Source of the DNA: Hyphomicrobiales bacterium
GTDB taxonomy: Bacteria > Pseudomonadota > Alphaproteobacteria > Rhizobiales > Xanthobacteraceae
Reading direction: 5' to 3'
Assembly: GCA_016185205.1 (NCBI GenBank)
Contig: JACPOA010000061.1
Span: 1-64,000, forward strand
DNA: 64,000 nt
Shown here: positions 27,609 through 30,554 of the stretch, in pieces
How positions within the stretch are numbered: position 1 is the first letter of the stretch
Layout: each line of letters starts with the position of its first letter
Position numbers and translations under genes: made by a program
Notes under the pieces: model-generated
The model's database searches: none
The model's input: the letters and a program-made list of their open reading frames with translations, nothing else
Told to the model about the DNA's origin: nothing

Positions 27609-28703
27609 CTATGGCGCAATCGCATGCGCCTTGCGGCCGCCGCGTTCGATCGATGCCGGGGCTTCGTCGCACGAGATGAGATGCGCCGCCAGATCAAGGC
27701 AGCGTTTGGCGAGCATCGATGCCCCCTCGGCTAGTTCGGTGGACGTGCGCACGATCTCGACATTGCGTTCCATGTCTTCGCGCGACCAGCCGCGCGAATG
27801 GGCGATGTAAGGAAACTGCGGAAATATGAAACCGAGTTCGGCGAAGAACCCCAGCATCTGCCCGGCCACCGCCTGGATGTTATCCTGCCCGCCGACGATG
27901 ATGAATCCTGCCACCTTGTTGCGGATGAGAACCTGATTGCGGATCGTCACCGCGTTCTGCACGCAGTTCAGCCGTTCGGCCATCTTGAAATACAGCGACG
28001 ACGCGGCGCCCCATCGGATCGGCGATGAGATGATGATGGCGTCGGCCCAATGCACCAAAGCCTCATAGACTTGGTCCATCTGATCCTTGGCGTCCATCTG
28101 GGTGATCGAACACGGCCAGGTGCAGGCCTGCGCGGCCTTTGAGTAGTAACCCTCGCAGGCGTGGAAGTTGAGATCGTTCAACTTGATCATCCGCGTCTCG
28201 GCGCCAAGTCCTTTCGCGGCCTTCAAAGCATGCTCGAGCAGATGGTCCGAGCCGGAGAAACGCGGATTGGCGGCATCCATCGCCGAGGTCGAAATGCCGG
28301 CAAGCCGCAACGGCCCCGGCGCGCGCTCGACCTTGCGCGATAGCGGATGCGGTGCGTGCGGCGCCTTTTGCCGCTTGCTGCCGGCATTGAGATTGACCAA
28401 CACGCGGCCGCTCTCGATCTTGACCGGATAGGCGGGAACGCGGTCTTCCTCGAAACCCGGCTCACCCAGTCCGCTGCAGCGGTGGAATTTCCAATTGTGC
28501 CAAGGGCAGACGATGTAATCGCCATCCAGCCGGCCGTTGCCGAGCGGTCCGCCGACGTGGTTGCAGGTATTCGAAACCGCGCCGAATTTCCCATCCTTGA
28601 GCGATATTGCGAGCTCCCGCTTCATCGCCGTGACGCGCTTGATCGGCGTTTGGGAAAACTCCTCCGCGCTGCCGATGTCGACCCAGTTTTCATCCCCAGC
28701 CAT
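27609..28703 (-). CDS. Rieske [2Fe-2S] / NADPH-dependent FMN reductase fusion
   Basis: A 364-aa soluble fusion. The Rieske domain (about 5-108) has the full ligand set Cys47-x-His49 and Cys66-x2-His69 (CNHVGG and CPWHNW). After a short linker comes a flavodoxin-like FMN reductase (about 128-350, LRLAGISTSAMDAANPRF, then AIIISSPIRWGAASSLYFK and GFIIVGGQDNIQAV), which should bind FMN. It would pass electrons between a flavin and a Rieske cluster. It ends a minus-strand operon, 9 bp after the ferric-reductase/Rieske gene, so the two Rieske proteins are probably partners. Substrate unknown. Confidence 0.87.
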   Translation of the reverse strand: MAGDENWVDIGSAEEFSQTPIKRVTAMKRELAISLKDGKFGAVSNTCNHVGGPLGNGRLDGDYIVCPWHNWKFHRCSGLGEPGFEEDRVPAYPVKIESGRVLVNLNAGSKRQKAPHAPHPLSRKVERAPGPLRLAGISTSAMDAANPRFSGSDHLLEHALKAAKGLGAETRMIKLNDLNFHACEGYYSKAAQACTWPCSITQMDAKDQMDQVYEALVHWADAIIISSPIRWGAASSLYFKMAERLNCVQNAVTIRNQVLIRNKVAGFIIVGGQDNIQAVAGQMLGFFAELGFIFPQFPYIAHSRGWSREDMERNVEIVRTSTELAEGASMLAKRCLDLAAHLISCDEAPASIERGGRKAHAIAP

Positions 28704-28712
28704 GACAATTCC

Positions 28713-29765
28713 TCACAGGAGGTTCGATGGACATTTGATCGCGGCCGGAGTGCCCGGCCGCAAGGGTTGCGGGTCGACTTCCACGATCCCGCGATTGATC
28801 CGCACCCGGTATGTGATGAGCTTCTCGGTGAATGGCGGCGGCGCGCAGCCGTCCGCCAGCCGATACTGATAGCCATGCCAAGGGCATGTGACGCAGCCGT
28901 CGATGATGCGGCCTTCGCCAAGCGGGCCGTTCTGGTGCGCGCATAGATTGGTGAGCGCGCCGATCTCATCGCCGTCGCGAAATACGGCGATGCGCTCAGC
29001 CCCGGATGCTGCGACGATGCGTGCGCCCTTATCCGGAATAGCGTGCGGTGGGCCGACGGCAATCCAGCCTTCGGCGCTTACAGCGATGCCGCGGTCGAGT
29101 CGGCGTTCGCGCCAGCCGGCGATGAGGTGCAATACGGCCACGCTGCCAAGCCCGCCCGCCAGCATCAGCGGAATCAGCACGGTGTATTCGCCCTGCATGA
29201 TGCCGAGCGCGACATGCATGATCACCAGCCCATAGGCGACGTAGAGCGCCATGTGCAGCGCCTTCCAGATGCGCGGGGTGAGGAACAGCAGCCAGAAATC
29301 ATGGCTCGTGGCCGCCATCACGAACAGCACGAGCAAGGCGGCGAGACCCAGCGCCTTGAACGGGAAGTCGATGAACTTGGCGTAATCCTTCCAAGTGGTC
29401 AGTTCGGTCAGGAGGTTCGGCAGATTGTGTTGCACCAGGTACCACGAGAGCAGGAAGCCAAAATGCGTCAGCGCGACGAGGAAGGTCAGCACCCCGAAAT
29501 GACGCCGGTTGTACAGGAGCTTCAGGAAGCGGCGATCGAGCCGCGCCAGCGGACCGATCGACAGGATCACCGTCAGCATCAGGAAGGCGCAGGTTCCGGT
29601 GGCGCGAATCCAGATATCGATCGCGTCCGGCAATTTTGTGGGCGGATGCAGCTGCCAATGGATCGCGGCAAAACCGGCGATGAACAGCGCGACGGCGGCG
29701 AGCAGGATGCCGTCATAGACGAGCTTGTCCCGGTTCCACTGCACAGCCCGGAATCCGACGCTCAT
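28713..29765 (-). CDS. Ferric-reductase-like transmembrane / Rieske fusion
   Basis: A 350-aa inner-membrane protein. Six or so hydrophobic helices (about 18-35, 56-74, 88-112, 134-153, 168-188, 196-216) form a ferric-reductase-like (YedZ/NOX-type) b-haem domain with His candidates at 89, 101, 155, 171 and 184. A cytoplasmic Rieske domain follows (about 228-332) with Cys275-x-His277 and Cys294-x2-His297 (CAHQNG and CPWHGYQY). The ATG at 29765 has AAGGAGA just upstream. It lies in an operon with DUF1622, two small membrane proteins and a Rieske/FMN-reductase fusion, suggesting a membrane electron-transfer chain. Confidence 0.87.
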   Translation of the reverse strand: MSVGFRAVQWNRDKLVYDGILLAAVALFIAGFAAIHWQLHPPTKLPDAIDIWIRATGTCAFLMLTVILSIGPLARLDRRFLKLLYNRRHFGVLTFLVALTHFGFLLSWYLVQHNLPNLLTELTTWKDYAKFIDFPFKALGLAALLVLFVMAATSHDFWLLFLTPRIWKALHMALYVAYGLVIMHVALGIMQGEYTVLIPLMLAGGLGSVAVLHLIAGWRERRLDRGIAVSAEGWIAVGPPHAIPDKGARIVAASGAERIAVFRDGDEIGALTNLCAHQNGPLGEGRIIDGCVTCPWHGYQYRLADGCAPPPFTEKLITYRVRINRGIVEVDPQPLRPGTPAAIKCPSNLL

Positions 29766-29777
29766 CAACGTCTCCTT

Positions 29778-29888
29778 TCAGACCGGCGGTGGCGCCCGCA
29801 GTATGAGCGCCAGCGCAAAACCGACGGCGACGACCAGCGCCAGGACCGGCCACAGCATGCGATGAGTGGAACGGTGCGCACGTCTCAT
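29778..29888 (-). CDS. 36-aa single-pass membrane protein
   Basis: ATG at 29888 overlaps the stop of the upstream gene (ATGA), and the frame ends 12 bp before the ferric-reductase gene. A basic start (MRRAHRSTHRM) precedes one membrane helix (about 12-31, LWPVLALVVAVGFALALILR). Tiny membrane subunits like this often accompany oxidases and reductases. Tight coupling on both sides is the main support. Confidence 0.6.
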   Translation of the reverse strand: MRRAHRSTHRMLWPVLALVVAVGFALALILRAPPPV

Positions 29889-30106
29889 AGAGCACGATGC
29901 GTTTTTGCGGCGGCCCGCGCTTGGCGCCAGCGCATGAGCACATAGGGCCACAAGATCGCCGCGCCCGGCAGCCAAAGAATTCGCGCCGGCGCGGTCACGC
30001 TCGCATGCGGCAGCACCTGCGCGAGGCCGAGCGTCACGAACGCAATACCAATGACGATGCCGCACAAGGCATAAAGGGCAAGGCCGTAAAACAGGATGAT
30101 CGCCAT
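29885..30106 (-). CDS. Small two-helix membrane protein
   Basis: A 73-aa protein with two hydrophobic helices (about 2-27, starting MAIILFYGLALYALCGIVIG, and about 38-54, ARILWLPGAAILWPYVL) and a basic C-terminus. The ATG at 30106 is preferred; a TTG at 30160 would add 18 residues but has no ribosome-binding site. The stop overlaps the start of the next gene. No domain is recognised; its place suggests a membrane subunit of the adjacent redox system. Confidence 0.65.
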   Translation of the reverse strand: MAIILFYGLALYALCGIVIGIAFVTLGLAQVLPHASVTAPARILWLPGAAILWPYVLMRWRQARAAAKTHRAL

Positions 30107-30197
30107 GCCAGCGCGCCCCGATTTGCCCGCCACGATAGGATCGATCAGATGGCCACGCAATACACGGATGGCACGCGACCAAAGTTCGCTGGCGCAT

Positions 30198-30554
30198 TCA
30201 GGGGCGATGCTTGCCGCGCTGCCAGGGCCAGCGGCCTTCGATTTCCAGCACCAGTGTCCAGCTCAGGAAGGTTCGGATCAGCACCAGGCCGGCCAGCAGG
30301 CCAAGGCTGGTGAAGGTGAGCTCGAGCGCGATGGTCTTCACAATGTCGGCGGCGACCAGTACCTCAAGGCCGAGCAGCAGGGAGCGGCCAATGCGGATTT
30401 TGTAGGTGCCGTAGTGCGTCTCGGCCATCCGCTGGCCGACATAGAGATAAGTCGACCAGCCGATCCCCAGCACGATGACCAGGACCCCGAAAATCTCGAT
30501 CACGTTGCCGACAAAGTGAAGCCAATAAGCGACCGCCGCATCGAGGTCGTGCAT
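30198..30554 (-). CDS. DUF1622 membrane protein
   Basis: A 118-aa DUF1622 protein with three membrane helices (about 10-36, 58-77, 79-97; FGVLVIVLGIGWSTYLYVG and LLLGLEVLVAADIVKTI). The second carries the family motif LLLGLEVLVAADI. Function unknown. It begins 21 bp after accC on the same strand, so it may be partly cotranscribed with accC, and it leads the redox operon that follows. Confidence 0.88.
   Translation of the reverse strand: MHDLDAAVAYWLHFVGNVIEIFGVLVIVLGIGWSTYLYVGQRMAETHYGTYKIRIGRSLLLGLEVLVAADIVKTIALELTFTSLGLLAGLVLIRTFLSWTLVLEIEGRWPWQRGKHRP

Follow-up and report, generated by a model that had tools for sequence, protein, structure and literature searches.

Can two Rieske fusions, one soluble and one in the membrane, work with tiny neighbouring membrane proteins to carry electrons out across a bacterial inner membrane? 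The question is raised by positions 27609-30554 (minus strand) of a 64,000-nucleotide stretch of Hyphomicrobiales bacterium DNA (assembly GCA_016185205.1, contig JACPOA010000061.1, positions 1 to 64,000; hereafter the window). An earlier note, made from the letters alone, had read a one-strand run of five genes there, with overlaps or short gaps, as an operon for a new membrane electron-transfer chain. The coordinates confirm all five open reading frames (Table 1), which from upstream encode a DUF1622 protein, a 73-amino-acid (aa) and a 36-aa protein, a ferric-reductase-like/Rieske fusion (P0002) and a Rieske/flavin mononucleotide (FMN)-reductase fusion (P0001). We propose, at a probability of about 0.58, that the module is a transmembrane electron-export system of the MsrQ/STEAP branch of the ferric-reductase-domain (FRD) superfamily, fed by P0001. 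Domains, conserved ligands, predicted fold, gene order, co-inheritance and partner swap were all computed here.

The 73-aa gene overlaps the 36-aa gene by 4 nt, gaps of 12 nt and 9 nt separate the 36-aa gene from P0002 and P0002 from P0001, and DUF1622 lies 91 nt from the 73-aa gene on its upstream side. Genes were called by a purpose-written script rather than a standard gene finder; P0002 starts at ATG, with a TTG one codon upstream. A Pfam scan found DUF1622, Ferric_reduct plus Rieske in P0002, and Rieske plus FMN_red in P0001, and in that scan neither the 73-aa nor the 36-aa protein passed a cut-off.

P0002 belongs to the FRD superfamily by profile score (Ferric_reduct PF01794, 44.6 bits against a cut-off of 28). 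Its relatives were aligned twice, once with 37 of 39 family proteins (A1; L059 and L061, with apparently broken frames, omitted) and once with the window protein and 68 of 75 listed relatives (A4; near-copies or partial rows omitted). R87, H101, H171 and H184 are present in 69 of 69 rows, R87 aligning with an MsrQ Arg and the other three with MsrQ histidines. P0002 thus bears the YedZ/STEAP-branch signature, a conserved Arg at the first canonical haem His with the remaining His kept; replacement of that His by Arg is given as the mark of YedZ/STEAP proteins in the excerpts of a 2013 survey (PMC3591440) to which all our statements about this source refer. The AlphaFold2 model of P0002 (pLDDT 90.0) matches STEAP1/2/4 best in VIA-align, followed by NOX5 and NOX2, with Rieske ferredoxins as the matches to its final third. 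Charge counts under the positive-inside rule place this Rieske domain in the cytosol. The CxH...CxxH cluster ligands of PF00355 are found in both fusions, and the assignment of Cys275, His277, Cys294 and His297 in P0002 is borne out by the alignment: C275/H277 are kept throughout (69 of 69 rows), C294/H297 in all but one (68 of 69), the sole exception being L096, where the frame is apparently broken.

Because Arg87 occupies the position of the first canonical haem His, P0002 probably holds one b-haem, on the outer side, rather than a fully His-ligated pair. An inner plus an outer haem with four His ligands is unsupported by the alignment with MsrQ, with H89 leaving some room for it.

P0001 matches Rieske (2e-15) and FMN_red (2e-12; PF03358, 47.3 bits against a cut-off of 24). 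Its Rieske ligands were correctly picked out in the earlier note: C47, H49, C66 and H69 are invariant in 14 of 14 rows. So are five more cysteines (C183, C194, C198, C247 and C335). Iron-sulfur flavoproteins carry an additional cluster, and by analogy an extra cluster is possible in P0001.

The two fusions are inherited together. We sampled 198 family genomes and 385 class genomes (thresholds E <= 1e-20 for P0002 relatives and E <= 1e-40 for P0001). P0002 occurs in 26 of the family genomes and 18 of the class genomes, own genome included, and P0001 in 20 of the 198. Both occur in 18 family genomes against 2.6 expected (Fisher 1.8e-17, kinship ignored), one part of the co-occurrence check that had been put forward; P0002 stands without P0001 in eight. 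Since the two lie on different contigs in G008, G031 and G078, their co-inheritance extends beyond close linkage.

A contig scan returned at least 592 P0002 relatives among 594 candidate stretches, and the best 80, which were kept, are by record title mostly from Alphaproteobacteria, plus Acidobacteria, Planctomycetota, KSB1 and one gammaproteobacterial metagenome-assembled genome. Genome-sample and contig-scan loci, partly from the same genomes and some genomes therefore present twice, make up 119 clustered loci, 116 of which hold the P0002 family (106 distinct proteins). The 73-aa family lies just upstream of P0002 in 111 of these 116, and 36-aa homologues occupy the corresponding position, their cluster being present in 58 of the 119 loci. 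In 12 further loci the two are fused into a single 122-136-aa protein (11 distinct proteins), which suggests that the 73-aa and 36-aa proteins work as one unit.

DUF1622 behaves differently. The window and L087 are the only places where it adjoins P0002; among the 198 family genomes it occurs in 20, and on P0002's contig in the own genome only. Seven of the 20 also hold P0002, a weak genome-level association (Fisher 0.007, kinship ignored). A DUF1622-like gene directly follows a Rieske-thiamine pyrophosphate (TPP) gene, ~4.1-4.7 kb upstream of P0002, in four Hyphomonadaceae loci (L139, L143, L153 and L162). We rejected DUF1622 as a subunit of the whole unit, its linkage to P0002 not being conserved; it may be an occasional accessory rather than a core part. 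What remains of the operon is therefore a conserved four-gene unit (73-aa, 36-aa, P0002, P0001), and the idea of a membrane electron-transfer unit, with its predicted co-occurrence, is supported for the two Rieske fusions and the small membrane proteins, conserved and co-inherited across genomes, and not for DUF1622. L087 itself is a 3.1-kb contig labelled Betaproteobacteria, possibly wrongly; its P0002 is 94% identical and it has the DUF1622 neighbour in common.

Outside the window's clade, the gene after P0002 usually encodes a ~250-aa membrane-anchored Cys3-His-Met protein, hereafter the Cys/His protein. Its model (pLDDT 92.3) has one membrane anchor and two barrel-like beta domains, and D163, K165, C166, M171, H179, C182 and C186 are invariant in 47 rows (alignment A5 holds 47 of 57 rows, near-copies or partial rows omitted). 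The two members scanned matched no Pfam or NCBIfam family. All 15 class-sample genomes with a full-length Cys/His protein (E < 1e-80) also hold P0002, and G413 and G578, the remaining class-sample P0002 genomes besides the own, have Rieske/FMN in its place. Among the 14 non-Alphaproteobacteria loci (L087, its label doubted, uncounted), 13 carry the Cys/His protein and 13 the 73-aa family. Over the 116 loci, the raw tally is 70 for the Cys/His protein and 22 for the Rieske/FMN gene, never together. We built a tree of 105 distinct P0002-family proteins of 320-420 aa (out of 106) by a quick method with SH-aLRT support only, keeping broken-frame rows as called. The window's clade comprises 35 rows (SH-aLRT 100), all lacking the Cys/His protein, and 17 carry the Rieske/FMN gene; over the whole tree the Cys/His protein is kept in 69 of 105 rows.

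Other enzymes near P0002 bear the same tag. Within 5.5 kb of P0002 in the 116 loci, a Rieske-glutamate-synthase-like gene occurs 23 times and a Rieske-TPP gene 18 times. Besides P0002, Rieske-motif genes account for 57 of 970 genes at 5 kb or less, for none of 634 more distant genes and for none of 221 control genes (near kin included, events not independent). Three different enzymes with one tag thus cluster around a single membrane protein, and the place of the soluble Rieske enzyme can be taken by an FMN reductase, a glutamate-synthase-like enzyme or a TPP enzyme.

The Rieske-TPP fusion (~659 aa), closest to pyruvate oxidase/acetolactate synthase models, is found at L078:6309-8288, with similar genes in L108, L120, L122, L125, L129 and L134; such genes often stand beside the Rieske-glutamate-synthase-like fusion (~536 aa), which adjoins the P0002 family at L083:4361-5965 and L075:11185-12792. 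The Cys/His domain recurs in short, apparently secreted proteins (L200:4670-5604, L202:6951-7834, L203:7080-8622). Behind each comes another Cys-containing protein, and L203 has an SCO1/SenC gene there as well; neither these short proteins nor their Cys-containing followers passed a Pfam cut-off.

How would electrons move? P0001 would probably oxidise NAD(P)H at its FMN, and its Rieske cluster would hand the electrons to the cytosolic Rieske domain of P0002. From there they would reach the b-haem, bound by H101 and H184 close to the outer face, and finally an acceptor beyond the inner membrane. The 73-aa and 36-aa proteins would be small membrane subunits of P0002. Outside the window's clade, the usual outer partner would be the Cys/His protein. 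We infer cofactor loading, acceptor and topology (positive-inside) as well as direction, the last because of FRD family behaviour and the nature of the partner enzymes.

Several points weigh against this export chain. FRD proteins of known function draw electrons from flavin, and Rieske input is only proposed; nor is NAD(P)H use obligatory for FMN_red proteins. P0001 occurs without P0002 in two family genomes (G149 and G185), and 18 of the 35 window-clade rows have no Rieske/FMN gene nearby (some contigs are short, and the gene lies elsewhere in G008, G031 and G078). H89 and H155 of P0002 are invariant and outside the MsrQ-matching set, and may mark a second haem or quinone site.

A bolder version of electron export is possible, though less likely than not. 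The module would be a widespread docking station in the membrane, a "Rieske bus", taking electrons from several Rieske-tagged cytosolic enzymes (FMN reductase, glutamate-synthase-like, TPP oxidase-like) and exporting them via one haem to a new periplasmic class of Cys3-His-Met redox-metal proteins, that is, an undescribed respiratory or detoxifying branch.

Flow could also run the other way: quinol or a periplasmic reductant would reduce the haem, and the cytosolic Rieske domain would supply Rieske-tagged enzymes that carry out reductive or oxygenase-like reactions within the cell. Dioxygenase-type Rieske ferredoxins (CarAc and others), which feed enzymes, are sequence relatives of both Rieske domains and share the fold of P0002's, and one partner carries a glutamate-synthase domain, normally an electron-consuming activity. 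The Rieske domains here differ from those ferredoxins in being parts of fusions, with a membrane cytochrome or with flavo/TPP enzymes. Against reverse flow, the FMN-reductase and TPP partners look like electron sources, the TPP partner being closest to the pyruvate oxidase model at a score far below that model's cut-off. The Pfam scan found no oxygenase domain in P0001 or P0002. With FRD relatives of known function exporting electrons (in part PMC3591440), reverse flow is unlikely.

Quite unlikely, too, is a STEAP-like metal reductase, in which Fe(III) or Cu(II) would be reduced by the haem itself and the window's clade would have no protein acceptor. STEAP metalloreductases are the best fold matches of P0002, and a profile that recovers the Cys/His protein in the class sample found it in 0 of 198 family genomes. 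Yet most relatives retain that dedicated outer protein, and no recurrent neighbour cluster resembles iron or copper uptake, the neighbours not being systematically annotated. STEAP2-4 use flavin adenine dinucleotide (FAD). They also have an N-terminal NADPH domain (PMC3591440), whereas in P0002 the Rieske domain sits at the C-terminus and the Pfam scan shows no nucleotide-binding domain.

A superoxide-producing bacterial NOX-like system is very improbable. NOX5 and NOX2 do appear among the structural matches, but the NOX reading calls for four haem His plus FAD- and NADPH-binding domains; we rejected it because the Pfam scan found neither domain in P0002 and Arg at the first haem His is the YedZ/STEAP signature, not that of NOX (PMC3591440). 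To chance neighbours, genes not functionally joined, we give almost no credence: the adjacency of DUF1622 does look incidental, but gene order kept across phyla, fused small proteins and co-inheritance even on separate contigs contradict chance for the four-gene unit.

Among known systems, MsrQ/YedZ, which serves the MsrPQ methionine sulfoxide reductase as its haem subunit, exports electrons from a flavin reductase in the cytosol to a partner in the periplasm. P0002 resembles it in its FRD profile match, the Arg that replaces the first haem His, the three matching His and the proposed export of electrons, and differs in its Rieske domain, two tiny subunits and different partners; against the MsrQ model NF003831 it scores 34.9 bits, where the equivalog cut-off is 130, and so falls outside MsrQ proper. 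Fusion model M4 of PMC3591440 (Figure 3 legend), which lists FMN and Rieske among fusion modules, is likewise a bacterial FRD protein with a Rieske module. The excerpts give it as a domain architecture in the figure only, and in them we found nothing on a gene set, on partners or small subunits, or on a function. In searches of the open-access literature we found no description of this gene set and no named system with it, in keeping with the earlier note. As far as searched, the sequences point to a real, conserved and apparently undescribed variant of FRD transmembrane electron transfer.

Table 1. Genes of the locus in the window, listed from upstream.
Protein	Description	Coordinates	Strand	Remark
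P0005	DUF1622 membrane protein	30198..30554	-	PF07784 8e-18; neighbour, probably outside the unit
P0004	73-aa membrane protein	29885..30106	-	Conserved PG...LWP...RW motif
P0003	36-aa single-helix membrane protein	29778..29888	-	
P0002	Six-helix ferric-reductase-like protein with C-terminal Rieske domain, 350 aa	28713..29765	-	Proposed conduit across the membrane (haem b/[2Fe-2S])
P0001	Fusion of Rieske and NAD(P)H-dependent FMN-reductase-like domains, 364 aa	27609..28703	-	Proposed cytosolic electron donor

Read by eye, without family search, the upstream neighbours are biotin-carboxylase-, biotin-carboxyl-carrier- and 3-dehydroquinate-dehydratase-like genes, and a PAS/chemotaxis-receptor-like gene lies downstream on the opposite strand. 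Elsewhere, window:38232-39272 encodes an apparently secreted EB_dh family (ethylbenzene-dehydrogenase-related) protein (Pfam 1e-41), and window:34450-35220 a DsbA-like protein with a ScsC N-terminal domain (a copper-resistance-type thiol protein) adjoining an M48 peptidase/TPR protein. An apparently secreted 633-aa protein with a glycine run, at window:23835-25736, has no Pfam match.

If electron export by this module is true, several phyla would hold an unrecognised inner-membrane electron route in which a swappable Rieske tag plugs enzymes into the membrane. The locus also points to an unnamed periplasmic domain family and provides a setting for tiny membrane genes with no family in Pfam.
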